A stretch of 64,000 nucleotides of DNA from Sulfolobus sp. S-194 (GTDB lineage Archaea > Thermoproteota > Thermoprotei_A > Sulfolobales > Sulfolobaceae). The stretch is taken from positions 1,116,001-1,180,000 of the forward strand of contig NZ_CP035730.1 in the NCBI RefSeq assembly GCF_012222305.1, read 5' to 3'. The first letter of the stretch is position 1. Every line of letters begins with the position of its first letter. The position numbers and the translations under genes are program-made. The notes beneath the pieces are model-generated. The model was not told the origin of the DNA and did not search any database. It saw only the letters and a list, made by a program, of their open reading frames with translations. Shown here in pieces: positions 2,563 through 64,000 of this stretch.

Positions 2563-3765
2563 TTAAGTATTTACTCCCGTGAGTATCACATTTTTAACTG
2601 CCTCAGCAACGTTATCCCAACTGGAATGTAACTCCAAAAACTTCAATAACTTTTCGTCGTTATTCATTAGATCTTCGATTTCCTTATCTGACATCTTAAT
2701 AATCTTAATAGCCTCCTTTGCCATACTCTCTTTATCAAACTCCTTTACTATCTTTACCTGATTTAAATCACCGTAAACACTACTTATTGCTGGGATATCA
2801 TAAGCTACTACAGGGATTCCCAAGGCTAAAGCTTCGAGAACTACTAAAGAAAAACCATCAACATGAGATGGATAAATTAGAACCTTAGCCTTAGAGGCTA
2901 TATCATAAAGCTTTTCTTTGGGTACAAAACCTAAATAATCAACGTTTATCCCATACTTCTTAACCTTTTTAAAGAAGAGGTTTTTATTATAATTGTCAAA
3001 AAACTTTCCCATTACTACTAACTTGGTCTTTACTTCCTTGTTTATGATCTTTAAAATGTCAGGAAGTTCCGGAAAACCCTTATCTTGATTTAACCTACTC
3101 CAGAATACAACGTAATCTTCCTTACCCCTTCCTCTATATTTCAGAAGTGAAGGGTCAAATGCATTACCGGGTTTTAAAATCTTACCATTTAAACCACTCT
3201 CAACTAAACTGCTGCTACTTACTGCAGCTATAAATGTCGGAGGATACTTTCTTAATAACGATCTATGCTTAGGTTTTGCTATTAATTCATTATAGAGAAA
3301 ACGAGTATAAAATCCCTTACCAGTTGACGGGTTAAACTTATAAAATTTTATTAATCTCGAAAGATATCTAAGAGAATTAGTATAGAAAGGAGGTACATGA
3401 AACGTTATCCCGAACTTTTTTCCAAAATAGAATATGTCGAAACTTGTGTGGTCTGGTTCATATAATATATCTATGTCTTTTACGTTAAAAATTCTAACAT
3501 AATCCTTAATCTTAGCATTTCTAAACTTACCATATTTATCTAAAATATCATAGAATTCATCAGCAATATCTATTCCTAGATCTTTAATCTCTTTTACCTT
3601 CTTCTCTAGAGCTTCTTTAGGCCATCTTAATGATTTAGATGATGGAATATAAACAATATCAAAATATTTTTTCAGACGCACAGTTACTTCGAATGCATGA
3701 ACACTTCCACCACCTGCGAAGTAAGGTGATAGAAAATTATCGTATACAATTCCTATTTTTACCAT
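2563..3765 (-). CDS. GT4-family glycosyltransferase
   Basis: A cytoplasmic glycosyltransferase of 400 aa with the GT-B fold of family GT4. The N-terminal Gly-rich segment (FAGGGSVHAFEVTVRL) is the acceptor-side motif. The C-terminal half carries FWSRLNQDKGFPELPDI, the usual start of the donor domain, and HVDGFSLVVLEALALG near residue 310, where the family's EX7E motif reads D-X7-E. The product is probably a glycan of the cell surface or of a protein. It is a single gene, with no tight operon partner; the nearest relatives in function are the surface-glycan genes at 6.7-11.7 kb. Confidence 0.85.
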   Translation of the reverse strand: MVKIGIVYDNFLSPYFAGGGSVHAFEVTVRLKKYFDIVYIPSSKSLRWPKEALEKKVKEIKDLGIDIADEFYDILDKYGKFRNAKIKDYVRIFNVKDIDILYEPDHTSFDIFYFGKKFGITFHVPPFYTNSLRYLSRLIKFYKFNPSTGKGFYTRFLYNELIAKPKHRSLLRKYPPTFIAAVSSSSLVESGLNGKILKPGNAFDPSLLKYRGRGKEDYVVFWSRLNQDKGFPELPDILKIINKEVKTKLVVMGKFFDNYNKNLFFKKVKKYGINVDYLGFVPKEKLYDIASKAKVLIYPSHVDGFSLVVLEALALGIPVVAYDIPAISSVYGDLNQVKIVKEFDKESMAKEAIKIIKMSDKEIEDLMNNDEKLLKFLELHSSWDNVAEAVKNVILTGVNT

Positions 3766-33757: not shown

Positions 33758-36486
33758 TTAAACTTCTGAGATTTTTCTTGAGGGCACTTTTTCGATATCA
33801 TTTTCCGGTAAAACCTCTGAGAATATTTTAGCTATTGCTACCGCTTCATTCACGTATCTATTTGTCTCCCTCAATTTATCAATCTCTTCCTTTAACTTAT
33901 CTGAGAACTTTAAGGCTATATACTCCAAATAGTGAAGTACTTGAACCGGATTGTTAAAATCATAATTACCAACTTTAGCTTCTCTAACATGTTCGAGTTT
34001 TTCGAAGGAGAGTATAATGTTACTATTATCAGTGACGTTTTCAGGCTCACCTAAAAATATACGTTTCCTTTTTCTGTTAACTTGAATTATTCCATTTCTT
34101 TCTAAATCCTTCTCTATTATATTACCAGTTACATTTAACAATACTAAACTATTTCTATCTATTTTCCTAACTCCTCTGGCAGGGGGTAATAACACTTTTA
34201 ATAGAATATAAAAGCTGGAATAGGGATTATCTATTCTAACACCTACGGATTCCGATAACCCTTTAATTATAGCTTGAGTAGTTACTGGGTAAATGTGATT
34301 TTTTATTAGATTTTCTATGGAATGTACTCCGTTTCCGTTAATTCCTACGATCTTTTCATACTTGGTAAATATTGACAATACCTTACCCAAAGCCACCATA
34401 TAAGTGTCTATTGATAATTTGCCCGCTTTTATATAAGAAGAGAACCATTTGGATACGTTAGATATAGTTTCATTTCTTACATCTTGAATTAATTTATTAC
34501 CCTCAGCTCTCTTCTTCCATGCAACCACGATAGACTTATCTAACGTTACAGTGCTTATGTTTGCCGTCATTCTTGTCCTATCCTTTGTAGTAACTATATG
34601 AGTAGCAATTATTCTGAACTTAGAAATAAACCAGCCTGCATAAAGTAATGATACCCATGCCTCTGGTGAAGAACTACTGAAAAATATAATCAACGTACCG
34701 TCATCTTTTAAAAGCTTGTATAATCTGAGAAAAACCTCAGCTAATTTATTCCTAAAATATTCTAACGTGCCCACTACACCTCTGTATAGCTTATTAATAT
34801 CCTTTGGCACGAATTCTTCCCATTGTGTGTTATAAGGAAACGGAAATACTCTTTTTAGCCAAACATAGAAGTAATCACTCAAATACGGCTTGTCATCTGC
34901 AAAAGGTGGATCTGTAACTATCTAATCCACTGGCTCTTTTTGCAAGTTATCTTGGTAAGAAGGAACTTCAATTTGAGAATTAGTGTTAGTATATATCAGG
35001 TATTTTAGACCCTTCTTAATATGTTCTAACAATTTAATTAGCGAACCAGAGATATTACCTAAAGGAGAAATTTCTACCCAAGTCCATGAGAATGCGAATC
35101 CCCTAAATGCCGTAACGGGAACGTTAAAAGCCCTCGTACTATCTATCGATGTTATCATACTGTTATATCTTACATGATTCAAAAAGGCCATTGTAAGATA
35201 TGTTAGTATAGCGTTTTTGTACTCCTCATCTCCATTAATCTTATCTCTTAATTCGTTTAATCTATTAACAATTTTTACTAGAATCAGTAATTGTCTCGCG
35301 TTAAATAATTTATAAAACCTATCTATACCCCATCTCACAAAGGCAAGAAGACCATAAGGAAAAGCTTTTTCAGTAGATATTTTCACAATATCTATCTCCC
35401 TTAACTTATTAAAAGCCTTCCAGAATATTTTTTTGTCTTCCTCAGTAATTTCATCAAAATCTAGATTTCTACCCTCATCCTTAAACTTAACTAGTAGTGT
35501 AGGCCTTGCTTTTGAGTTTCGTAATTCTTCTAAAGTAATCTCGCCATTTAAGAACTTCTCGTAATTTGAATTCCATTCCTTAATAGCGTCTCTAACATAC
35601 CACTCACGACCCTTACCCGGAAGAACAGAACCACAATATAGACACTTAGCGTAATTATTTCCAGCTTTCACATTACCTTGTGGAATCTCATAAGACTTGC
35701 TAGAATCCTTGAGCAGTATACGATTTTTAGAAACTTTAGCAATTATATTATTACTTCTCAACTCCTTGTTGAGGTCAATTATTTTAATACGAAGCTTATG
35801 TTCTCCACGATAGGTTTCATATAAACTATTCTTCTGAAAGTCCCCACTCTTGTATTTTCCTCTCCTTCTTCTCCCTCGCTTTCGCTTCCACTTCTCTTCA
35901 ATTCCAATAAATTCCAGGCAAAAGATAACGGAGTATAATTTCCGCATACTGGACACTTAACTTCCCAAGACCCCACATATCCAGTATAGTCACCATAAAG
36001 TTCTTTAATGTCATCCTTTAAGCTTTCTATCAAATCTTGGCCATACTTTTCAATGTCTTTTATGAGTTTTTGTCCATATTTTGGATATACGAGCACTCCT
36101 TTGAGAAACGTATAGGCAGTGGGTATAGGATCTGAAGCAATAACTTTCTTAAATCCAAGCCTTTTTGCTTCTAATGCAAAGGAACCAAATCCAGCGAAAG
36201 GATCTAAAAAGGTAGAGTTTCTGAAGCTCTCAGTAATCTCTGGGTTAAATTTGTGTGGTAAATCCTTATCCAGTCTTATCATTGTCTTGTATTCCTCAAT
36301 GCTAAAATCTTCTGGGAGTAATGCAGCTGTTATAAACGCTCTAGCTGAGAGTAATGGCTCTCTACCCCACCACAATACTATTTCCCAAAATGGAGGCCTT
36401 CCTGGGCCTTTTTCTTTTGAGGCCTTTCTATCAATTTCCGAAATAATTGACGAAAAGCTATCACTCTCTATAAACAAATTATCCAT
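33758..36486 (-). pseudogene. Broken DUF1156 adenine methylase, inverted copy of the Hma-like methylase
   Basis: This is a full-length relative of the intact methylase at 36812, in the opposite orientation, but broken twice. Part 1 (36486-35779) ends after FRRIVYMKPIVEN; near 35818 a one-base shift moves the frame to GEHKLRIKIIDLNKE. Part 2 then reaches an in-frame TAG at 34922-34924, directly before IVTDPPFADD, which holds the catalytic motif. Part 3 resumes in the same frame. A segment of about 10 aa present in the intact copy (near VDEARKKAFG) is lost. Motif I (DPFAGFG) and the zinc-ribbon cysteines remain. It is no longer able to make an active enzyme without readthrough. Confidence 0.85.
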
Positions 36487-36811: not shown

Positions 36812-39574
36812 ATGGATAAGCGTCTTATTGAGAGTGACAAGTTCTCCTCCATTATTCCAGAAATTGATAAAAAAGCTGCGAAAGAGAAGGGACCTGGTAG
36901 ACCTCCTTATTGGGAAATGATATTTTGGTGGACTAGAAAACCTTTAATTTCCGCAAGGGCTTTTATAGTTGCCTCTCTTTTACCTGAGAATTTTGATATT
37001 ACAGAATATAAAAGGATTATAAGGCTGAATGAGGATCTTCCACACAAATACCAACCAATAACTAACGGTAAATTTTCTAACTATACACTTCTAGATCCAT
37101 TCGCAGGATTTGGTTCAATTCCACTTGAAGCAAAAAGACTAGGATTGGGAAAAGTCATAGCATCAGAACTCCTACCTACCGCTTATGTTTTCTTGAAAGC
37201 AGTTCTTGAGTATCCTAAGTACGGAGAGAAACTCTTAAAGGATGTTGAAAAATACGGTAAAGAACTAATTGAAAGCATTAAGGAAGACGTGAAAGAACTC
37301 TATCAAGATAATGCGGGTTTTGTAGGCACATGGGAAGTTAAATGTCCAGTTTGCGAGAATTACACTCCTCTAGTAAACCAGTGGTGGTTACTAGCATTAA
37401 AAGAAGGAAGCAATGACGATGAAGAAGAGGAAGAAGAAGAAGTTAAATCTGGTGCGTTTCGGAGGCTGGTATACATGGAGCCAATAAAGGAAGGCAATAG
37501 GATCCATATTAGAGTAGTTGATTTAAACAAAGAACTAGGTGTGAAAAAAGTGAGGGCAAAAATGGCTAAGGATAAGGTAGTAATTGACGGAAAAGAGTAT
37601 CGTGTACCCCAAGGTAATGTTAATGCAAAAAGCAGTAGTGCCAGGTGTTTATACTGTAATAACGTATTTCCAGGAAAGGGAGAGAAGTGGTATGTTAGAG
37701 AGGCTATTAAGGAATGGAATTCAAATTACGAGAAGTTCTTAAATGGCGAGATTACTTTAGAAGAATTATGGAGTTCTAAGGCTAGGCCTAGACTTTTGGT
37801 AAAGTTCAAAGGCGAATCTAAGGATGTGGTTTTTGAAGAAATTACCAGAGAGGATGAAAAAGCATTTTTGAGCACATTTGAAAAATTAAGGGAAATAGAT
37901 ATAACTAAAATACCCACGGAAAAAGCTACTCCTTACGGAACAATAGTTTTTTCAGCATGGGGCATAGATAGATTTTATAAATTATTTAATGCTAGGCAAT
38001 TATTGATCCTTGCAAGGATAACTGAGAAGCTTAACCAGATAAGGGACAAAATAGAAGGAGATTATGAATATAAAGAAGTAATTATGACATACTTAGCTAT
38101 AGCCTTTTTAAATCATATAAGGCATAATTGCATGCTAACCTCGATTGAACCTAGTAGGAAAATTATTAGAGAGGCTACCGGATTTAGGAGATTTGCATTC
38201 ACATGGAATTGGGTTGAAATCTCCCCTTTAGCTAATATAATAGGTTCATTGCCTAAGAGTTCAGAACATATAATTGAAGGACTCGAATACTTAATACGAA
38301 CCTACAGCGATTCGCAAGTTGAAGTCCTTCAATCAGATGTAAACGATTTAAGGCTTGATCCCGTTGATGCTATTGTTACTGATCCCCCTTATGCGGATGA
38401 TGTACCATATCCTGAAGTAAGTGATTTCTACTATGTCTGGTTAAAGAGAGTGTTTCCATTACCATATACTACACAATGGGAAGAATTCGTACCAAGAGAT
38501 ATAGGAGTGGATGAGGCGAGAAAAAAAGCATTCGGAAACGGCATAGGTACTTATGATTACTTTAGGGAGAGACTGGCGAAGGCTTTCTTGAATCTTAGTG
38601 AATTATTAAAGAGTGATGGTGTACTGGTCACTTTTTACAACCACACTTCACCTGAGGCGTGGTCATCCTTACTTTATGCTGGTTGGTACTATTCGAAGTT
38701 CAGAATTTCAACAACTCATGCAATAACTACAGAGGACGAGACAAGAATAACTGCTAGAGGCACTATTTCCCTCGATAAATCCATTGTTATAGTTTGGAGA
38801 AAAAGAGCAGAAGGTACTAAACATATACAAGAAGTTAAGAAATACACTATCTCTTCAGTTTCAGATTGGATATCTGCAAATATTAAATCACTATCTTTAG
38901 ATACATATATAGAAGTATTAGGTAAAGTGCTGTCAGAGTTTACTAAATATGAAAAACTATTAGGCTTAAAAGGAGAAGGAATAAAAGCAGTAGAAGATCT
39001 AGTCTCTAATCACGTCTTTCCAACAGTTGTTCAGTCCTTAATAGAAGGACTATCTAAGGGAGCTGGAGCTAGAATCGAAAACCCATACTCGACATTTTAC
39101 GTTTTAGTCAAAGCATTAATTCCGCCCTCTAAAACAGTGAGGAAGTTAGACAAAAATGCCTTAATATTCTTAAACGTATCCGGAAATATTACTAAGGATA
39201 ACCTACTTCAGAATAATATAATAAAAGCCGAAAAGGACACTATCTATTTGATGGAACCAGAAAATGCAAGTGACTTAAATGATAAAATACAATCATTTGA
39301 AATGCTAGATTACGTTAAATCTGCAATTTCAGGTAGTTATAATTTCTCTAATCCTATTCAAGTACTTCATTACTTAGAATATATAGCACTAAAATACCCA
39401 GATAAATTGCAGGAAGAAATTATTAAACTTAAAGAAAAGACACGATTTGTAGATGAGGCATTGTCAATTGCCAAAATATTTACTAAGGTACTCAATGAAA
39501 AAGATATTGAATATGAAGCTGCATGTAAGATTATAGGAGGTTGTAAAGAAGGAATTGAGAAATGGGTGAGGTAA
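36812..39574 (+). CDS. DUF1156 adenine-specific DNA methyltransferase of an Hma-like system
   Basis: A protein of 920 aa of the COG1743/DUF1156 family. Order of parts: N-terminal KEKGPGRPPYWEMIFWW (DUF1156 signature), SAM motif I DPFAGFGS (residues 95-102), zinc-binding cysteines CPVCENY and CLYCNN, the family-specific WNSNYEKFLNGE block, the N6-adenine catalytic motif DPPY at residues 524-527, and a long C-terminal domain (FTKYEKLLGLKGEG). It modifies adenine and is the self-marking or control component of the system. Its TAA is immediately followed by the ATG of the DUF499 ATPase gene (zero gap), a coupled operon. An inverted, broken copy lies upstream. Confidence 0.9.
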   Translation: MDKRLIESDKFSSIIPEIDKKAAKEKGPGRPPYWEMIFWWTRKPLISARAFIVASLLPENFDITEYKRIIRLNEDLPHKYQPITNGKFSNYTLLDPFAGFGSIPLEAKRLGLGKVIASELLPTAYVFLKAVLEYPKYGEKLLKDVEKYGKELIESIKEDVKELYQDNAGFVGTWEVKCPVCENYTPLVNQWWLLALKEGSNDDEEEEEEEVKSGAFRRLVYMEPIKEGNRIHIRVVDLNKELGVKKVRAKMAKDKVVIDGKEYRVPQGNVNAKSSSARCLYCNNVFPGKGEKWYVREAIKEWNSNYEKFLNGEITLEELWSSKARPRLLVKFKGESKDVVFEEITREDEKAFLSTFEKLREIDITKIPTEKATPYGTIVFSAWGIDRFYKLFNARQLLILARITEKLNQIRDKIEGDYEYKEVIMTYLAIAFLNHIRHNCMLTSIEPSRKIIREATGFRRFAFTWNWVEISPLANIIGSLPKSSEHIIEGLEYLIRTYSDSQVEVLQSDVNDLRLDPVDAIVTDPPYADDVPYPEVSDFYYVWLKRVFPLPYTTQWEEFVPRDIGVDEARKKAFGNGIGTYDYFRERLAKAFLNLSELLKSDGVLVTFYNHTSPEAWSSLLYAGWYYSKFRISTTHAITTEDETRITARGTISLDKSIVIVWRKRAEGTKHIQEVKKYTISSVSDWISANIKSLSLDTYIEVLGKVLSEFTKYEKLLGLKGEGIKAVEDLVSNHVFPTVVQSLIEGLSKGAGARIENPYSTFYVLVKALIPPSKTVRKLDKNALIFLNVSGNITKDNLLQNNIIKAEKDTIYLMEPENASDLNDKIQSFEMLDYVKSAISGSYNFSNPIQVLHYLEYIALKYPDKLQEEIIKLKEKTRFVDEALSIAKIFTKVLNEKDIEYEAACKIIGGCKEGIEKWVR

Positions 39575-55080: not shown

Positions 55081-55509
55081 TTATATTAAAATATAAAATA
55101 TATTGTATACTAAAACTTCTATTATAGCAAGAATAAATAATACTATAAATCCCTTAATTAGTTCTTTTGAAAATCTAAACATAATATAAAATTCCATGAA
55201 GGCTAAGAATATGGTAAAATATCCCATGTTCAGATTATCAAAAATTGCTGACCACGCTATATAAAATTCAGAAAATAGAGCTATAAACGAAACTAGTAAT
55301 GCGACACCTACCACCTTTATATGCTCTACGAGAATATAAATAAGTAAATATACTATACTATTTAACGCAAATATTACTAAGATCCATGCATATCCTAGAA
55401 ATCTTACTTGTAATTTTAATGGTGAAAGAAATGAAGGAAGTATTGAAAGCAGAAGTGCCATACAACTAATTATGAGATATTTTCTAATTATATCATCCAA
55501 ACATATCAC
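55081..55509 (-). CDS. Four-helix membrane protein of peptide cassette A
   Basis: A protein of 142 aa with four hydrophobic helices. It is a clear relative of the 139-aa protein at 59444: both share EFYIAWSAIFDNLNMGYFTI / EFYLGISAIMENLSVGYFTV and IIEVLVYN / FIEILVYD near the C-terminus. It is the last gene of the minus-strand cassette A (17-base overlap with the 354-aa gene). Its size and membrane nature would suit an immunity protein or transporter subunit, which is an inference. Confidence 0.7.
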   Translation of the reverse strand: MICLDDIIRKYLIISCMALLLSILPSFLSPLKLQVRFLGYAWILVIFALNSIVYLLIYILVEHIKVVGVALLVSFIALFSEFYIAWSAIFDNLNMGYFTIFLAFMEFYIMFRFSKELIKGFIVLFILAIIEVLVYNIFYILI

Positions 55510-56557
55510 CTACTATAGTTAAGAGTATTAGATTTGCGATTACACTTACGATAAGAATAATGAGATAAGACAGATAAGCTTTACCTAAATTTTTCCTTAA
55601 GAAGAGTGGTGAGATTACATAAGCTAATAAGATCGATAATAGTGAGAGGGGTATTGCAATAATTTCGAATAATATTGTAATTGGTAATATCAAATATACT
55701 ATATTGATTATGATTAAAAATAATAATAGAGATTTTGTTATGTCTACATCTTTAAAACCAAAAGTATGCATTATAAGTGAAGCTGAATACGTTACACCCA
55801 ACATAATTATCATAAACAGCAATATCCTACTTAATAGTAACATAAGGGTAAGTCTATCTATAGTAATTCCAGAATATATTAATTCAGAAATTAAAAATAA
55901 GCCAAAATTTGTTGTAACCAAGATTATAAATGGAAACAAAGATTTAACAACATAATTCTCATCATTATACACATTCTCAACGCTTTGAAACAAATTCCTA
56001 GGAATATTAGATACTAAATAAGAAGCAACAAAAGGAATAAACAAAAGGAGAGCTAAAAAAACTATTATAAATATTGGTATACCTAAAGTATTTCTTAGAT
56101 ACGTAAACCAATTAGCTAAGTCTTTTAATCCAATAGGGTTAACATAATAAATATAATAGAAGAATAAAAGTATAAAATAAAGTACATTTGAATCAGTTAC
56201 ACTAATTAAAGTGTATAGTGAGTTATGCAGAAAATCGTGTTCGACAATATTAATTTTCATTATATTCATAAGAATGTAATCACTAAAAGCCGACATAATT
56301 AAGGCCGCAGAATACGTAATTATAAGTGAATACTCTATAACTAATTTATTAAGTTTAATAGAGATGAGAAATGTTATTATAAAACTCATTATTGTAATAA
56401 AAGTTAATTTTAAATTATGTAATTTGTTGTAAGTTGATTGTTTATTACGAAATATACGTAATATAAGATATATTAAATAAGTTGTAAAATCTGTTGCAAA
56501 TAATAAAAAAATTAATTCACTTGAATTCATTTTTATACTCACCATTCTAAGCAGCAA
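55493..56557 (-). CDS. Large multi-spanning membrane protein of peptide cassette A
   Basis: A membrane protein of 354 aa with about 9-10 helices and few loops. It holds the same place as the 394-aa protein of cassette B and the 500-aa M48-like protease of cassette D (directly after the small hydrophobic protein). No HExxH is present. It overlaps the upstream small protein gene by 11 bases and the downstream 142-aa gene by 17. It may export or process the small protein; homology to the 394-aa protein is weak by eye. Confidence 0.65.
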   Translation of the reverse strand: MLLRMVSIKMNSSELIFLLFATDFTTYLIYLILRIFRNKQSTYNKLHNLKLTFITIMSFIITFLISIKLNKLVIEYSLIITYSAALIMSAFSDYILMNIMKINIVEHDFLHNSLYTLISVTDSNVLYFILLFFYYIYYVNPIGLKDLANWFTYLRNTLGIPIFIIVFLALLLFIPFVASYLVSNIPRNLFQSVENVYNDENYVVKSLFPFIILVTTNFGLFLISELIYSGITIDRLTLMLLLSRILLFMIIMLGVTYSASLIMHTFGFKDVDITKSLLLFLIIINIVYLILPITILFEIIAIPLSLLSILLAYVISPLFLRKNLGKAYLSYLIILIVSVIANLILLTIVGDMFG

Positions 56558-56903
56558 TTAAACCGAATCCGAAAACTATTGCAGTAAATGGATCTGCTAA
56601 GCCTAGAAAAACAAAAAATTCAAACGGATCCCCGCCAGATATAGCCGCCATAGCTGCTGGATTAGTAGTAACCAGGTTATAGAGATTATAAAAATAGAAA
56701 AGAATATATGCACCAGAACTTGTCACTCCTTCTACGTTTCCGTTTAAAGCATTAGGAACTAGATAATATGCTGCAACTGCATGTCCTGCTAATATACCGC
56801 CCATTATACTAGATTCTAACGGAACTAGTAGCATTACAAACATTAGAATTCCTACAGCCTTCAGCATGGTAAATATATTCTTTATAGTTATCTGTTGCGA
56901 CAT
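56547..56903 (-). CDS. Small hydrophobic secreted/membrane protein, cassette A
   Basis: A protein of 118 aa: short N-terminus (SQQITIKNIFTMLKA), a membrane segment with a central Pro (LMFVMLLVPLESSIMGGI), then an Ala/Gly/Tyr-rich core and a C-terminus DPFTAIVFGFGLIAA. The C-terminus resembles those of the proteins at 61073 (DPYTAAVFLGLVATA) and 58028 (NPLTMGVYLGLVETA). It is probably the secreted or surface product of cassette A. It could be a bacteriocin-like peptide precursor or a pilin-like subunit. Confidence 0.6.
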   Translation of the reverse strand: MSQQITIKNIFTMLKAVGILMFVMLLVPLESSIMGGILAGHAVAAYYLVPNALNGNVEGVTSSGAYILFYFYNLYNLVTTNPAAMAAISGGDPFEFFVFLGLADPFTAIVFGFGLIAA

Positions 56904-57068
56904 TATAACACTAAAATATATTAGTCAATTATAGATTTTATTTTTTCCTTTAATAATCAGTAAATTTATAGTATCTTATAGGAAGATTATGCGGTTTTTA
57001 CAATTTCACTAATAAGGTATTTGGTTTGAAAAAGAATATAAATAATTTGAGCACATTCCTATGTGATT

Positions 57069-57683
57069 ATGCGAATAAGATTTAGGAAGATTAATTACAC
57101 TACAACTTATATTTTAAGCACAATTGAATCTTTTCTTTTCTCGCTCTTCTTAGCCACATTACTTCTAATATTAATTATTAGGGAGATTAACTTAATCATG
57201 ATTTTCGTTATATCATTACTTCTCACGATAGGAAGTTATATTGACATTCTTATTTATGATAAAGTTTATTTTAACCTTTCTGGGTTCTTTTTTCCTCTTT
57301 CTTTGACTATCTCCTTACTTATTATAATTGGCAAGGAATTATTGCAAATTTACTATGATTTATTCCTAGTTCTTTTCTCCTCTTTATTATTCTTTATTGA
57401 GAATAGGTTACATTTTAAAAATGATATAGGATACTCGATAAAATACTCAATGTTAATTTCAATGTTTTCTGGTTTAGTTAGTTTCTTACTATTTAGTAGA
57501 TTTCCTTACTATTTTGCTTTTATAAGTACTTTTATTCCAACTTTACTTCTTGATTTTCAATTAAGTATAAGATGTAATCGTGAGATAATCATAGGAGGTT
57601 TAGGAGTGAGAGACTTATTAGTTTTAATGCCAATTGTAGCCATGTTAATGGCGTTCTCGCTTAATATAATGTTACCTAAATAA
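57069..57683 (+). CDS. Membrane protein with two-Asp GGxGxxD motif, cassette A
   Basis: A protein of about 204 aa (ATG 57069; GTG 57063 also in frame) with six or so helices. Near the end it has LLLDFQLS, then IIGGLGVRDLLVLMP. The 223-aa protein at 58769 has the same pair: LLQDILKS, then IIGGFSGLDGLYVIP. Two membrane Asp residues with a Gly-rich second site recall DUF1614-like or presenilin-like aspartyl proteases; this family link is from memory and not confirmed. It is divergent from the small protein gene at 56903, with a 165-base shared promoter gap. Confidence 0.6.
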   Translation: MRIRFRKINYTTTYILSTIESFLFSLFLATLLLILIIREINLIMIFVISLLLTIGSYIDILIYDKVYFNLSGFFFPLSLTISLLIIIGKELLQIYYDLFLVLFSSLLFFIENRLHFKNDIGYSIKYSMLISMFSGLVSFLLFSRFPYYFAFISTFIPTLLLDFQLSIRCNREIIIGGLGVRDLLVLMPIVAMLMAFSLNIMLPK

Positions 57684-57924
57684 CGCCAGTACTATTAAAG
57701 AAATGTAAAAGAAGAATATTTTTACCAACTCAACATAGATAAATCTCTCAATTTTCCTAATGTTGAACCATTTTTTATACTTTCTAATACTTTAAAAACA
57801 ATGTCATGACATTAGGAAAGATGTCTTGTGCAATTTAAGAGATATTGTTATAAACTACAATCAAGCATATAATAATTTATGGATATGTAAGTAGATTAAT
57901 GCCAATACTTTATCTGTATTTGCA

Positions 57925-58168
57925 TTGTCTAATTTTAAGCTTTACTATGTAAAACGTTTAAAAAGATTTGCTAATTAAAAGAATAGTTAGCATATAGCAT
58001 ATTAAAATGTAGTATAGAGGAAAAGACATGATAACAACGGTTGTTCAAAAGGAAGAAACAGAAATAGACATTAAGAAAGCTATAAAAGCTAGCCTACTAA
58101 TGACATTTTTCTTAGTAGCAGTCCCAATAAATAGTATAATGCTAACACAAGCAATAATAACTTATGTT
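57925..58168. repeat. Left arm of a long inverted repeat (with 61332-61653)
   Basis: This arm covers the promoter and first 141 coding bases of the small protein gene at 58028. Its complement lies at 61332-61653 around the gene at 61474. The coding part is identical (141 of 141). Upstream, the arms match through TTTACTATGTAAAACGTTTA and TTAGCATAT; the right arm has about 75 extra bases bounded by TAGCATAT on both sides, so the left arm lost them by a short-repeat deletion. Confidence 0.85.
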
Positions 58169-58333
58169 TATCCACAAGCTTCTGACTGCTTTATTGGAGC
58201 ATCTATTGGATATTTTGTTAATAATATTATTCCAATACTTTCAGGCTGGGCTGGTGTACTAGCAGCAAATAGTGCATCAATGTCAAATCCCTTAACAATG
58301 GGAGTTTATCTTGGTTTAGTTGAAACTGCGTAA
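58028..58333 (+). CDS. Small hydrophobic protein with a shared leader and a different core (cassette C)
   Basis: A protein of 101 aa. Residues 1-47 are identical to those of the 133-aa protein of cassette B (same DNA), then the sequence changes abruptly to a Cys/Gly/Ala-rich core (YPQASDCFIGASIGYF) and ends NPLTMGVYLGLVETA. It is preceded by the same ribosome site (GAGG). Downstream, the spacer and start of a large membrane protein gene are recognisable but it stops after 10 codons (MSKLNFFQIS). So the small protein is intact, but its partner gene is truncated. Confidence 0.6.
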   Translation: MITTVVQKEETEIDIKKAIKASLLMTFFLVAVPINSIMLTQAIITYVYPQASDCFIGASIGYFVNNIIPILSGWAGVLAANSASMSNPLTMGVYLGLVETA

Positions 58334-58662
58334 AAACGGTGTAATTTATGTCAAAGTTAAACTTTTTTCAAATTTCCTAACTTTTGAAAAAATAAATAAT
58401 TGGGGATCATTTATATTGTTTTTGGCAGCAGAATCTGCAGCATCAGATTCTCCAATCTATATATATCTAGGAATTTTGCTTATCCCTACATTTGCGGCTC
58501 TCTTTTTATTATTAGTGGATAGTACTGCTGCAATGTACGCTAGTAGAGTAAACGTTACTAGAAATATTGTATATAAAATTCGGAGTGATGGATGGGCTAA
58601 AGCTCCAAATAGGAATAATTGGGGAATTGTAGAAAAGAATATGTATTGAGAGAAAGATGCAA
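58334..58662 (+). pseudogene. Rearranged remnant of cassette C
   Basis: This stretch is a mosaic. It opens with a truncated start of the large membrane gene (10 codons at 58347), then a protein-like plus-strand segment LAAESAASDSPIYIYLGILL that resembles the end of a small-protein core, then at 58492 joins a 171-base copy of 59956-60126, which on the minus strand codes for part of the 394-aa membrane protein. Read on the plus strand, the copy is not a real gene. It seems to result from recombination between cassettes. Confidence 0.6.
58492..58662. repeat. 171-bp direct repeat, copy 1
   Basis: Identical to 59956-60126 except for one base (GTACGCT here, GTAAGCT there), with sharp ends on both sides. 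The right copy is inside the 394-aa membrane protein gene (minus strand); this copy is a detached fragment of it. Confidence 0.9.
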
Positions 58663-58768
58663 CACCAAAATTATTCTTGTAAAACGATTTTAGAGTTATA
58701 GCAAACGACGAGCTCTTGCCTCCTTTAACCTAATTTGCAAACCCTGGAATCCGTAGCCTTAAAAACTA

Positions 58769-59440
58769 CTAAAATGACTTAAATGTATATTGCATTAAAT
58801 TTTGTAGCACGAAGGGGTTATGAAAATTAAATACGTAAGTTATTAGGAAATTGATAAAAGTGCTCATAAAGGGTATAACATATAAGCCATCGAGTCCGCT
58901 AAAACCTCCTATAATTAGTAATTTTTCCTTTACCTTAAAAGGCAAATTATTAATGTCAGGGCGTATTTTTCTAGATTTTAAAATATCTTGTAAGAGAATT
59001 CCTATAAAGGATGAAATAAAAGTATTCTGTACTAATATTTGACTATTAAATAGGAATAGATTTAATAATGAAAAATAGAAGATTACACTAAAATTTGAGG
59101 TTACACCAATTTTAGTAATTTTACTTAGTTTACCCGCCAAAGCAAAAACTATTATAATAGATACTAGCAACAAGAGGAGATTTTCTTTAGATATAAAAAA
59201 TAATGTAAAAAATATGGAGATTCCTATCTCTGTAAATACAGAAAGATTTATTGCATGAAATTCATCTATCTTAAGATAAAACCCTGCCAAAAAGGCATTT
59301 AAAAAGCTAAACGGAAAAATCAATATGCTAATACTATGAGTAGCAAGAAAACTTACAATTGCGAAAAGTGGAAATGATGGGAGCAAAACTAGAGACGCAT
59401 AGGCTAAAAATTCATTTTTATCATACCTTTTTATTTTCAT
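58769..59440 (-). CDS. Membrane protein with two-Asp GGxGxxD-type motif, cassette B
   Basis: A protein of 223 aa with about seven helices. It is a relative of the 206-aa protein at 57069, sharing LLQDILKS and IIGGFSGLDGLYVIPF. It is the last gene of cassette B, 3 bases after the 139-aa gene. If the DUF1614/presenilin-like reading holds, it could cut small membrane proteins within the membrane, for example the leader of the cassette's small protein. Confidence 0.6.
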   Translation of the reverse strand: MKIKRYDKNEFLAYASLVLLPSFPLFAIVSFLATHSISILIFPFSFLNAFLAGFYLKIDEFHAINLSVFTEIGISIFFTLFFISKENLLLLLVSIIIVFALAGKLSKITKIGVTSNFSVIFYFSLLNLFLFNSQILVQNTFISSFIGILLQDILKSRKIRPDINNLPFKVKEKLLIIGGFSGLDGLYVIPFMSTFINFLITYVFNFHNPFVLQNLMQYTFKSF

Positions 59441-59443
59441 ATT

Positions 59444-59863
59444 CTACACCCCTATTCTGTCATAAACTAAAATTTCTATGAAAGCTAAAATTACTGTATA
59501 AATTATTCCTAGATATAAGCTTTTCCTTTGAGCAAAATATAACATTCCATAGAACTCAAGAAATATTAATAAAACTGTAAAATATCCAACAGATAAGTTT
59601 TCCATAATAGCTGAAATACCTAGATAAAATTCTATTAAAGAGGAAAGAAACAACCACGGAATTAAAAGAATAGGGAGTTTCATATTATTCATTATAAAAT
59701 AAATAACAGTAAAAATTATAAAATTAGCTATAATAATATTAATAACTAAATATAATGGTAGATAATGAAAGCCTACTTTTAATGGGTCGAGAATGGATAA
59801 AGGAATAGAGGTTAATAAGCTTACGAAAACTGTAAGATAATAAGCCTCTTTTCGTAAATCCAT
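59444..59863 (-). CDS. Four-helix membrane protein of peptide cassette B
   Basis: A protein of 139 aa with four helices, related to the 142-aa protein at 55081 over the second half (EFYLGISAIMENLSVGYFTV, FIEILVYD). It lies between the 394-aa and 223-aa genes with gaps of 12 and 3 bases. Same proposed role as its relative: immunity or transport helper. Confidence 0.7.
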   Translation of the reverse strand: MDLRKEAYYLTVFVSLLTSIPLSILDPLKVGFHYLPLYLVINIIIANFIIFTVIYFIMNNMKLPILLIPWLFLSSLIEFYLGISAIMENLSVGYFTVLLIFLEFYGMLYFAQRKSLYLGIIYTVILAFIEILVYDRIGV

Positions 59864-59875
59864 CTCTTGTCACCT

Positions 59876-61060
59876 TCACATTTTGAAGAAGACAGTAATT
59901 AATGAGAGAATTATAGATGAGAATATGCTCATGATAGCTATGATTAACCAGGCTATTGCGGCTCTCTTTTTATTATTAGTGGATAGTACTGCTGCAATGT
60001 AAGCTAGTAGAGTAAACGTTACTAGAAATATTGTATATAAAATTCGGAGTGATGGATGGGCTAAAGCTCCAAATAGGAATAATTGGGGAATTGTAGAAAA
60101 GAATATGTATTGAGAGAAAGATGCAAGGAACTCCTCATTTGAAAGTCCTAAAGAAGTAAAGATGATAGAGCCTAAGAAGGTTATAATTGAGAGTAATATA
60201 ATCTCAACTGCGAATTTCTCTAAAAATAATAAAAAGGAGATAAAACTTGGCTTAATCAAAGCAACTGGTAATGATGTTACTAGAGAAAATGCTAAGAGAA
60301 GAGGCATTAGATAAATTACACTCCTTACATTAACATTACTTGAATATATGGTTTGACTTAAAAAACTCTCTATAAAAGATTCCCTATCTCCTCCATATTT
60401 TATTTTATAATAACCTATAGCTGCTATAAACAGTACAATAAAAAATAAATAAAAAAAGCTCATAAAAAGAATATAAAACACAGATGGAGATATAAGTTTA
60501 CTAAAAGCTGAATATAATATAATCCCAAATATATAGCCCAATAAAATATTTATCATATATTTTCTAGCTTTTTCATAAAGAATTAATTTACTTTTTACTT
60601 TATATCTTAACTCACTTACCTTAGAATAAGATACGCCATCTGCAATTATGACAAAAGGCTTAATAGTGTATATGATTACTACGTCATTTCCTATGTATTT
60701 TTTGTCGTCAATATAGTATGTAAAACCGTCTTCTTCAACCCTATATAATTTTCTAGTGGCAAAAGATGGAAATATATAACCATCGACTACAAAAAATATA
60801 AATATAAGGATAATAATTCCATATATAAGAGGTTGGTAAAAATGATTTATATTTATATTAGTATATACTGCATATGTTGCTATTAGAAATATTGTATATA
60901 ATTCCTCATTTGTTATCTTTTTCCTCTTTTTTATAAAATATGCTAAGAATGGATATATAGATATATAGAAGATACCTACATAGATAATAAGCTGAATAAG
61001 CTGAAATTGACTTACTCCACTCAGAAACATATATAGGTTAAGAAAATCTAACTTTAACAT
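59876..61060 (-). CDS. Large membrane protein of cassette B, M48-like but without HExxH
   Basis: A membrane protein of 394 aa with 9-10 helices and one soluble loop at about 105-165. The loop (YIFPSFATRK, then IYTIKPFVIIADGVSYSKV and ILYEKARKYMINIL) lines up with the loop of the M48-like protease of cassette D (VFPRIKPFKY, LTLSHNPFSKRLIIINN, IEAHEIEHAKEHH), but the HExxH zinc site is missing. It may be an inactive relative. It follows the small protein gene by 12 bases and carries the right copy of the 171-bp repeat (59956-60126). Confidence 0.6.
   Translation of the reverse strand: MLKLDFLNLYMFLSGVSQFQLIQLIIYVGIFYISIYPFLAYFIKKRKKITNEELYTIFLIATYAVYTNININHFYQPLIYGIIILIFIFFVVDGYIFPSFATRKLYRVEEDGFTYYIDDKKYIGNDVVIIYTIKPFVIIADGVSYSKVSELRYKVKSKLILYEKARKYMINILLGYIFGIILYSAFSKLISPSVFYILFMSFFYLFFIVLFIAAIGYYKIKYGGDRESFIESFLSQTIYSSNVNVRSVIYLMPLLLAFSLVTSLPVALIKPSFISFLLFLEKFAVEIILLSIITFLGSIIFTSLGLSNEEFLASFSQYIFFSTIPQLFLFGALAHPSLRILYTIFLVTFTLLAYIAAVLSTNNKKRAAIAWLIIAIMSIFSSIILSLITVFFKM
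59956..60126. repeat. 171-bp direct repeat, copy 2
   Basis: Inside the 394-aa membrane protein gene; matches 58492-58662 in 170 of 171 positions and in the same orientation. Confidence 0.9.
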
Positions 61061-61072
61061 AAATTACACCGT

Positions 61073-61474
61073 TTATGCAGTAGCTACTAAACCAAGGAAA
61101 ACAGCAGCTGTATAAGGATCTACCCACATCGTTATTCCTGCTAGTATACTCCATGGTGAACCAGTCATTTCGAATAACGCTAAACCATACCCTAATCCAA
61201 ACACTAGTTGTGAAAAGAATTCAGCCCCATACGTTTCTATTCCTTCACTTAAAGGTCTTCCTATAGTCAATGTAACAAACATACCATATCTAAACGCAGC
61301 AGCACTACCATAATTGTTGTATATATTGTATCCAACATAAGTTATTATTGCTTGTGTTAGCATTATACTATTTATTGGGACTGCTACTAAGAAAAATGTC
61401 ATTAGTAGGCTAGCTTTTATAGCTTTCTTAATGTCTATTTCTGTTTCTTCCTTTTGAACAACCGTTGTTATCAT
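61073..61474 (-). CDS. Small hydrophobic secreted/membrane protein, cassette B
   Basis: A protein of 133 aa. Charged N-terminus (TTVVQKEETEIDIKKAIKA), membrane segment with a central Pro (LLMTFFLVAVPINSIMLT), Gly/Tyr-rich core and the C-terminus DPYTAAVFLGLVATA. The first 47 residues are identical to those of the protein at 58028. A GAGG ribosome site precedes the ATG. It is the first gene of an operon with the 394-, 139- and 223-aa membrane proteins. Probably the secreted product. Confidence 0.65.
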   Translation of the reverse strand: MITTVVQKEETEIDIKKAIKASLLMTFFLVAVPINSIMLTQAIITYVGYNIYNNYGSAAAFRYGMFVTLTIGRPLSEGIETYGAEFFSQLVFGLGYGLALFEMTGSPWSILAGITMWVDPYTAAVFLGLVATA

Positions 61475-61653
61475 GTCTTTTCCTCTATACTACATTTTAA
61501 TATGCTATGACTTATTTCTTTCTTTAAAAAATTTTTATGATTTAAGACCTTTTCCCTTTAAAAACAATACAAAAACATAACATATGCTAACTATTCTTTT
61601 AATTAGCAAGTTCTTTTTAAACGTTTTACATAGTAAAACTTAAAATTAGACAA
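61332..61653. repeat. Right arm of the long inverted repeat (with 57925-58168)
   Basis: Complement of 57925-58168, with about 75 additional bases between the promoter part and the coding part (61500-61580). Together the arms bracket 3.2 kb of cassette B and C genes, a configuration that can invert by recombination. Confidence 0.85.
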
Positions 61654-61975: not shown

Positions 61976-62314
61976 TTGAAGGCCAAAAAGATTGAAATAG
62001 ATCTTGCGAATTCCCAAGAAGCAAGAAATGCAGTATTAGCGATTTTTGCACTAGTACTTTTAGCAATATATCCTATAGTACAGACGATGATAGCTGGAAT
62101 AATTTTAGGTTCAATGATTTATATAGAGGGTGGGTCTGCAGCAGCAGGTATTGGGATCGCAACTATAACTAACACCGATAATATAGTCCAAGCAATTCTG
62201 TGGCTTTTAAGCGCATTCGGTATGTCTATTAGCCTCGATACAATCGATTTGCTGTTCACTATTATTGCAGGGATAGGTTTGGGACTTTTTGTGGGAGGAA
62301 TAGGCCTTTTATGA
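61976..62314 (+). CDS. Small hydrophobic protein of cassette D
   Basis: A protein of 112 aa starting at TTG 61976. Charged N-terminus (KAKKIEIDLANSQEARN), hydrophobic segment with a central Pro (VLLAIYPIVQTMIAGIIL), Gly/Ala-rich core (EGGSAAAGIGIA) and a Gly-rich hydrophobic end. The overall plan is like the proteins at 56903, 58028 and 61474, but the end differs from their DPxT type. It is followed after 12 bases (with a GAGGT site) by the M48-like protease gene, so the pair is coupled. Confidence 0.65.
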   Translation: MKAKKIEIDLANSQEARNAVLAIFALVLLAIYPIVQTMIAGIILGSMIYIEGGSAAAGIGIATITNTDNIVQAILWLLSAFGMSISLDTIDLLFTIIAGIGLGLFVGGIGLL

Positions 62315-62326
62315 GGTATTACTGAG

Positions 62327-63829
62327 ATGGTAAACCCCGTAATAAGAGCTATTAGAAAGATGTTTTATTTTTTTATGTCCCTAATTCTTGCGGATATATT
62401 ATTAGCTATAGTGACAGAAACAGCGGCTAAAGGAAACCCATATCTGTACCCCATTTTTACCAAAGTAACTTTAGCTCTATCAGAATTTCTTATAGGAGCA
62501 ATAGTAGTTTCATTCGCTATTCTCTTTATTAAGTATCGTAAGATTATAGTACCTTCTGTGCGTGAGGTAGTTTACAATAAGCAAGAGGATATAATTTATC
62601 AACCAGAATTAATATCATTGAAGACTCGCCTCATTACTATTTTCACTATTGCTTTATCAGCTTTCACAATGATATTACTAGGCCTAGCACCCTATACTCC
62701 TAAGGGTTTCATTATCGATACTATTACCCCATTCATAATTTCAATCCTAATTAACGGACTCGTCTTCCCTAGAATTAAACCATTCAAATACATAAAACCA
62801 GGAGAAATAAAAATAGTAACCATAAACACAAGAACGCCAGGAGCAACAGCAGAAGTACTAACACTCTCACACAACCCCTTCTCCAAAAGACTCATAATCA
62901 TAAACAACACCCTACCCTCAAACATCATAAAAACCATAGAAGCACACGAAATAGAACACGCAAAAGAACATCACGCACTCATCAAATCCATCTTCAATAA
63001 CTTAAATTATTCCTTATTTTTTACAACAGTTGAACTAATTTCCATTTTTATCTTTGCGGAGGTTCATCCGCATCATGTTTCTTTTACTGTAAATGCTGGG
63101 TTTGTGGTTAAGGATTTGTTGTTTTTTGTGGGTTTGATATTTGTTTATTTGTTGTTTTTGAGGGTTGCTGAGTCTAGGGCTGATGCTGCGGCTTTTAGAG
63201 CCAGTGGTAGTGAGGCGTATAATCATATGATTACCTTGATTAGGATGTTTAGGGAGAATTCGAGGAGGGTTGATTTGAGGAGGGTTGAGGTTTTTCCTTT
63301 TTCGTTTAGGGTTAGTTCTTTTTTAGATAGGGTTGTGCATACGTCTTCTAGGGAGGCGTTGAGGACTGGTGATGCTTTGTCTTCTTTGGCTCAATGGGAG
63401 ATTCCAGCTGTTTTTGCGTTCTTTGGGTCTATAATAGAGGTTTTAAGGTTAAGTTCTGTGAATCTTGTTATTTTTGCTTTTCCATTATTTTTTGTTGGAA
63501 TGTTTGTTGTTATTGTTCTTGTTGGGTTGGTTTTTCTACCTTTGACGAGAAGTTATGGTGGGACGCAGAAGGGAAGGATGAACTTCTCTTTTCTTGTTTC
63601 TGGGTTGTACTTGATAACTGATGTTATTACGCTAACTGTAATTTATAACTTTTATCTTGCCTTACTAGTCCTAGTTTCGGGACTTGTCTTATCCTTCTTG
63701 ATTCAGAAATCTTTTCTTAGTGATATGAGGACTGCAGTAAAGACTTTTCTAATTACTTTCGCAGTCTATGAGACTATAAATGTTTCTCTTTTCCTTATCT
63801 TTTTAGGATCTCATCTCGGTGTTTTTTAA
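62327..63829 (+). CDS. M48-like integral membrane metalloprotease of cassette D
   Basis: A membrane protein of 500 aa. Several helices come first (residues 1-150), then a soluble loop with the zinc site EAHEIEHAKEHH near residue 205 (HExxH), a further helix, and the third ligand in VAESRADAAAF near residue 283, as in M48/HtpX/Ste24 proteases, then more helices. Zinc ligands are complete, so it should be active. It follows the small hydrophobic protein by 12 bases, which suggests that it matures or degrades that protein. The sense strand is A/C-rich from about 62770 to 63000 and abruptly G/T-rich from 63060 to 63600. Confidence 0.8.
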   Translation: MVNPVIRAIRKMFYFFMSLILADILLAIVTETAAKGNPYLYPIFTKVTLALSEFLIGAIVVSFAILFIKYRKIIVPSVREVVYNKQEDIIYQPELISLKTRLITIFTIALSAFTMILLGLAPYTPKGFIIDTITPFIISILINGLVFPRIKPFKYIKPGEIKIVTINTRTPGATAEVLTLSHNPFSKRLIIINNTLPSNIIKTIEAHEIEHAKEHHALIKSIFNNLNYSLFFTTVELISIFIFAEVHPHHVSFTVNAGFVVKDLLFFVGLIFVYLLFLRVAESRADAAAFRASGSEAYNHMITLIRMFRENSRRVDLRRVEVFPFSFRVSSFLDRVVHTSSREALRTGDALSSLAQWEIPAVFAFFGSIIEVLRLSSVNLVIFAFPLFFVGMFVVIVLVGLVFLPLTRSYGGTQKGRMNFSFLVSGLYLITDVITLTVIYNFYLALLVLVSGLVLSFLIQKSFLSDMRTAVKTFLITFAVYETINVSLFLIFLGSHLGVF

Positions 63830-64000
63830 TGAATAAGGAAATACTTAAACTTTACTTGACTTTTTGGTCTGGCCTACTCTCTGGATGGGTAATTGATAAC
63901 TTTACAGGTTTTGATAAGCCAGAATTGATACATGAGCTTCCAATCCCCGATTACACTTTGCTAACTCACATCATCGAGGAAAACTTTATCTTTGCGCTAA
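63829..64000 (+). CDS. Third gene of cassette D (partial, cut by the window edge)
   Basis: An open frame of 57 codons starting at ATG 63829, which overlaps the TAA of the protease gene. It reads NKEILKLYLTFWSGLLSGW and runs off the window. By position it should be the counterpart of the four-helix proteins at 55081 and 59444; the short overlap in sequence (YLT-F-S-LL) is suggestive only. Confidence 0.5.
   Translation, partial: MNKEILKLYLTFWSGLLSGWVIDNFTGFDKPELIHELPIPDYTLLTHIIEENFIFAL

Follow-up and report, generated by a model that had tools for sequence, protein, structure and literature searches.

The stretch analysed here, the window, comprises 64,000 nucleotides (nt) of Sulfolobus sp. 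S-194 (C1:1116001-1180000 of its single-contig, 2.79-Mb genome, G000), and its right-hand part carries two small precursor genes with coding starts at 58028 on the plus strand and 61474 on the minus strand (Table 1). As an earlier note on this DNA had reported, the first 141 coding nt of the two genes are 100% identical; they lie within an exact tract of 175 nt, in which 57994-58168 pairs with 61508-61334 in inverted orientation. The identity reaches into the promoters, another point on which that note was correct: upstream of the 175-nt tract, additional exact runs of 28, 26 and 15 nt continue out to 57925/61653, where a few mismatches and one insertion/deletion (about 84 nt) break the match. 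The 141-nt run is far beyond chance, as none of 2000 mismatch permutations within the two genes reached it (longest 30 nt; analytic bound 4e-20). Past codon 47 the two proteins, here called cores A and B, are unrelated except at the C-terminus (DPYTAAVFLGLVATA / NPLTMGVYLGLVETA), and an 18-nt identical run follows the stop codons of both genes. The precursor N-terminus consists of about 20 residues with charges followed by one hydrophobic segment, that is, a signal-like leader. Judged from composition, the peptides are probably secreted or membrane-inserted, in agreement with the secreted product proposed earlier.

The right-hand precursor heads a cassette that lies wholly on the minus strand and continues with membrane proteins of 394, 139 and 223 amino acids (aa). 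The left-hand precursor is followed by a decayed second partner gene, within which a 171-nt direct repeat (58492-58662 and 59956-60126, 99.4%) is recognised. A relative of the same genus, G029, retains at the corresponding locus (L017) a complete left cassette on the plus strand, the right cassette on the minus strand, and a further cassette with an M48-family peptidase beyond it. The right precursors of the two genomes are 71% identical overall (56/89 residues for core B alone, which in G029 carries an in-frame TGA), and core A is found in a shorter precursor in G000 than in G029 (101 against 114 aa). Because the right core is orthologous and the flanks of the cassettes match by side in G029, both cassettes predate the split of the two species. 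The same arrangement in a second single-contig genome rules out an assembly artefact.

The leaders, on the other hand, resemble each other by genome and not by position. Synonymous divergence (dS) between leaders is 0 within G000 and 0-0.07 within G029, against about 0.25 between G000 and G029, where the leaders are about 88% identical, and the upstream promoter region likewise has a genome-specific version common to that genome's copies. Since the duplication is old, yet the leaders are identical or nearly so inside each genome and about 12% different between genomes, their identity is best explained by ectopic gene conversion (or crossover). This between-species difference leads us to reject an explanation by purifying selection on the leader alone, and the single old duplication under normal selection that the earlier note had set against its own proposal fails for the same reason. 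The pattern is one of concerted evolution: a paralog in the same genome is a closer match than the ortholog in the other one, and the tracts of identity are patchy and sharply bounded. In G029, the left and right cassettes are 98-100% identical over the leader and about 45-75% over the core and the 5′ half of the partner gene, a diverged stretch interrupted by a single island of 120 nt at 98%; identity then rises to 100% over the final 540 nt of the partner gene. The resulting 553-nt identical run was reached in 0/2000 permutations (longest 97 nt), whereas the longest runs in orthologous controls, 52 and 49 nt, were reached in 14/2000 and 938/2000, respectively.

Table 1 Features of the peptide cassettes in the window.
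Position	Strand	Feature	Remarks
57994..58168	+	Left arm	Promoter-proximal 34 nt and 141-nt leader, 100% identical to right arm
61334..61508	-	Right arm	Same 175-nt tract, inverted
57925..57995	+	Left upstream arm	Matches right upstream arm at about 96%; length difference of about 84 nt before main tract
61582..61653	-	Right upstream arm	
58028..58333	+	Left precursor gene (core A)	101 aa; open reading frame
61073..61474	-	Right precursor gene (core B)	133 aa; open reading frame
59876..61060	-	Partner membrane protein	394 aa; without family match; gene follows core B
59444..59863	-	Membrane protein	139 aa; 37% identical to the homologous 142-aa protein of the MSQQ cassette
58769..59440	-	Membrane protein	223 aa; sub-threshold DUF1614 match (E 0.0011); opposite orientation in G029
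58334..58662	+	Relic of left partner gene	5′ end frameshifted, followed by a 3′ piece of a partner gene copied in antisense (171 nt)
57063..57683	+	Membrane protein between two leaders	206 aa; distantly homologous to the 223-aa gene
56808..58168		Leader-to-leader block	MSQQ and MITTVV leaders with the 206-aa gene between them
56547..56903	-	Second-type precursor	118 aa; MSQQ leader
55493..56557	-	Second-type partner membrane protein	354 aa
55081..55509	-	Second-type membrane protein	142 aa
61976..62314	+	Third-type precursor	112 aa
62327..63829	+	M48-family membrane peptidase	500 aa; shares an identical 3′ part with second copy in G000
63829..64000	+	Third membrane gene, start	Identical to second copy until about 63999

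Exchange of leaders between different cores is indicated by a third G029 copy at a second locus, x (L018), whose core is orthologous to a G000 gene at 2063360-2063680. Between the two species the dS of this gene is 0.35 in the core, within the span seen for other orthologous genes in this comparison, and 1.96 in the leader; the simplest reading is that the G029 gene kept its core and carries a foreign leader. The 139-aa homolog at this locus (L018 about 2760-3060; G029 C1:697765-697877) is broken and includes a stretch of about 113 nt that is inverted relative to G000.

The left-hand cassettes, which begin with the MITTVV leader, are joined to a second cassette type with an MSQQ leader (55081-56903), which is organised like the right cassette. 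A block of about 1.4 kb, bounded by the MSQQ leader and the MITTVV leader and enclosing the 206-aa gene, is present at two G029 loci with 99-100% identity, and it ends at both leader/core junctions of the two divergent peptide genes, so that the two copies carry four different cores on their ends. The neighbours of the block are 354-own and core A in G000, 354′ and core A at the main locus of G029, and core x and 354-own-like at locus x. The two G029 blocks lie about 136 kb apart in mutually inverted orientation, and G000 has the intervening segment in the opposite direction. On the simplest account a crossover in the leader-to-leader block produced this rearrangement, with the full order of events uncertain owing to other inversions nearby. 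Over the wider region (C1:1032000-1217000 in G000, C1:647000-881000 in G029) the order of large segments is kept, with several segments individually inverted and many insertions; one of the inversion breakpoints is the leader-to-leader block. A second difference involves the 139-aa and 223-aa genes, which follow the right partner on the minus strand in G000 but, in G029, follow the left partner on the plus strand. In G029 the partner 3′ ends form inverted arms of 602 nt (97%) flanking these two genes, and recombination between them is a likely route of the inversion. The two interspecies inversions thus map to the partner-gene 3′ arms and to the leader-to-leader block, not to the leader-arm pair.

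The third cassette type (M48, 61976-64000) adjoins on the right and comprises a precursor, a peptidase and a third membrane gene. A second G000 copy lies about 34 kb away (C1:1212405-1213925), and the two copies form a mosaic that repeats the pattern of the MITTVV cassettes: 83-93% identity in the leader region, 46-50% in the cores, which differ, about 62-82% in the 5′ part of the peptidase gene, and 100% over 63330-63989, which covers the 3′ end of the peptidase gene and the start of the next one. A 507-nt identical run inside the peptidase gene was not reached in any permutation, and over 63330-63989 the first copy and its G029 ortholog share just 77-97% identity. The peptidase of this cassette is present in 5/214 genomes of the order, and a small hydrophobic peptide gene lies upstream of it in all copies read except one broken copy. 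The same three genes, for a small hydrophobic peptide, an M48 peptidase and a membrane protein of about 125-160 aa, recur in several other Sulfolobales genomes (L060, L061, L062 and L063). Elsewhere in the window, two diverged inverted repeats (74-83%) at 34797-35683 and 37607-38502 lie between paralogous genes, a broken minus-strand copy opposite an intact plus-strand copy; we take these to be DNA methylase-like, and the region of about 33.7-48.6 kb is presumably a defence or modification cluster.

Each cassette is a precursor with multi-span membrane partner genes, and all of the cassette proteins are hydrophobic in composition. The 133- or 394-aa proteins were found in two of the 31 genomes of the family, namely G000 and G029. 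The 394-aa protein gave no loci in the viral contigs searched, and the 394-aa and M48 families gave none in the genome contigs searched, both sets from which near relatives were possibly left out. Searches of the cassette proteins against Pfam, NCBIfam, PHROGs, PADLOC and PDB sequences returned nothing usable beyond the M48 family and the sub-threshold DUF1614 match, the weak PHROGs matches being to families of unknown function. Single-sequence AlphaFold models of a precursor and the 394-aa partner have mean predicted local distance difference test (pLDDT) values of 55 and 52 and are not good enough for fold searching. Between species, the ratio of nonsynonymous to synonymous divergence (dN/dS) is 0.88 for core B, 1.62 for core A, 1.11 for the M48 peptide, 0.45 for core x and 0.76-0.78 for the MSQQ cores, against about 0.22-0.44 for the partner proteins. 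At the amino-acid level the cores therefore evolve faster than the partners, a pattern that suggests diversifying selection on the cores without showing it; core A in G000, which has lost its partner, may be relaxed.

A history in which leaders and partner 3′ ends were exchanged among cassettes by recombination is, judging from these alignments, very probable. The two genes would encode precursors of small hydrophobic peptides, each with a signal-like leader and a putative secreted or membrane-inserted core, and each placed, now or formerly, ahead of its own multi-span membrane partner genes. On this reading, the inverted duplication is older than the two-species split, and since then the promoter and leader would have been copied among cassettes by ectopic gene conversion or crossover, together, in G029, with the 3′ half of the partner gene. 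The breakpoints lie at the leader/core junction, the core and the N-terminal half of the partner would escape conversion and diverge, and pieces ending at leaders would have moved between loci, placing one leader in front of different cores and one core behind different leaders. Because the cassettes are patchily distributed and multiple, with fast cores beside conserved leaders and the variable half of the partner adjoining the core, we infer that the peptides are antimicrobial. They would be archaeocin-like and aimed at close relatives, the partner proteins would export, mature or confer immunity to the cognate core, and new core/partner modules would gain, by recombination at the shared leader, an expression and export signal that already works. 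The combination of archaeocin-like peptide cassettes, recombining leaders and partner 3′ ends, and diversifying cores is the interpretation that we favour, with moderate confidence. Several observations weigh against it. The intervals of the core dN/dS values are wide, all spanning 1 or lying below it; some copies are not intact (the left partner relic in G000, the TGA in core B of G029); the searches above gave no family or structure match (Pfam, NCBIfam, PHROGs, PADLOC, PDB) that would back a bacteriocin assignment; an exporter ATPase is not seen among the cassette proteins in the list of open reading frames or the Pfam scan; and, with two genomes carrying the cassette, the direction and number of events are uncertain.

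The same recombination history could have acted on peptides that are not antimicrobial but pilin-like, or that have an envelope or signalling role, the N-terminal targeting helix being homogenised while the exposed part varies. The leader, a charged stretch and one hydrophobic helix, does have the layout of pilin-type signals. However, the cores are hydrophobic as well and predicted to be helical in the low-confidence model, each core has dedicated multi-span partners, neither a pilus ATPase nor a prepilin peptidase is recognised in the cassettes, and the set is missing from most relatives, all of which makes this alternative unlikely. Decay of a gene family, in which relic cassettes drift and recombine merely as repeats and fast cores reflect relaxed constraint, would account for the partner relic and the in-frame TGA just mentioned, for the broken 139-aa homolog at locus x and for core dN/dS near 1. 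Against it, most cores stay open with in-frame length changes, several core members retain a C-terminal DP.T-type signature, purifying selection acts on leaders and partners (dN/dS about 0.2-0.45), and the architecture is alike in three cassette types; this explanation is rather improbable. A stronger version of the antimicrobial interpretation is comparably doubtful when taken as a whole: leaders and partner C-termini would be kept identical as crossover handles, core-plus-specificity modules would be swapped among the MITTVV/394, MSQQ/354 and M48 families, perhaps between cells, and the leader-to-leader block would be an adaptor joining cassettes of two families.

The earlier note had taken the inverted arms for a device that shuffles cores behind one leader. 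The shuffling stands as recombination in evolutionary time, with a given leader occurring in front of different cores and a given core behind different leaders, but the inversion device does not. A phase-variable switch, in which recombination between the leader arms flips the interior and changes the expressed core, would fit the identical, inverted arms and the opposite orientations of the 139-aa and 223-aa genes in the two species. A promoter and leader are, however, present on both arms, so a flip would put each core behind identical sequence and should leave expression unchanged. Moreover, core B lies on the same side in both species, beside the M48 cassette, no recombinase gene is recognised near the arms, and the inversion that is observed lies at the partner 3′ arms, leaving the switch very improbable. 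Recent independent duplications in each species, which would also give nearly identical leaders within each genome, are hardly credible given that both copies predate the split, as the positional orthology of flanks and right core shows, and that identity is patchy within the copies.

Genes are known for few antimicrobial peptides of archaea. On the favoured interpretation, the archaeocin-like, recombining cassettes supply candidate archaeocins and candidate partner or immunity genes in culturable hot-spring archaea. The record of leader/core recombination is unusually clean and its breakpoints are precise; if the peptides are active, the diversification of thermoacidophilic archaeal weapons against close relatives becomes testable.

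The MITTVV, MSQQ and M48 cassettes are not filed under any named family, and known systems resemble them in part. Prochlorosins and other precursors of ribosomally synthesized and post-translationally modified peptides (RiPPs) are paralogs with a conserved N-terminal leader and a non-conserved core, several per genome, and recombination is suspected in creating their diversity (PMC10783134). The conserved leader and variable core among paralogs are shared by the cassettes, whose cores, in contrast, are hydrophobic and nearly cysteine-free and have their own membrane partner each, where prochlorosins share one promiscuous enzyme; Pfam and NCBIfam scans found no modification-enzyme family, including lanthipeptide synthetase-like ones, and only M48 in the neighbouring cassette. 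Circular bacteriocin clusters such as that of enterocin AS-48 likewise combine a small hydrophobic precursor, in some cases with a long leader, with mostly hydrophobic membrane proteins (PMC6131525). They differ in that SpoIIM/DUF95 (PF01944) is unmatched in ten cassette proteins (Pfam, E up to 1) and that ABC-transporter (ATP-binding cassette) genes, ATPase or permease, are not seen in the cassettes. The Thermococcus dark-matter islands, in the part of their description consulted, hold paralogous small secreted proteins that are strongly variable between species beside a zincin metallopeptidase, and a role in microbial conflicts is proposed for them; the protein families are others, including a large zincin/Ig-fold protein, and leader conversion is not described in that part (PMC4158269). 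The sulfolobicins SulA, SulB and SulC are proteinaceous, membrane-associated antimicrobials of Sulfolobales that act against close relatives (PMC3718332, PMC10117752, PMC5733018), as is suggested here for the cassette peptides, and are set apart, in a comparison by description, by a reported size of about 20-22 kDa against precursors of 101-133 aa.

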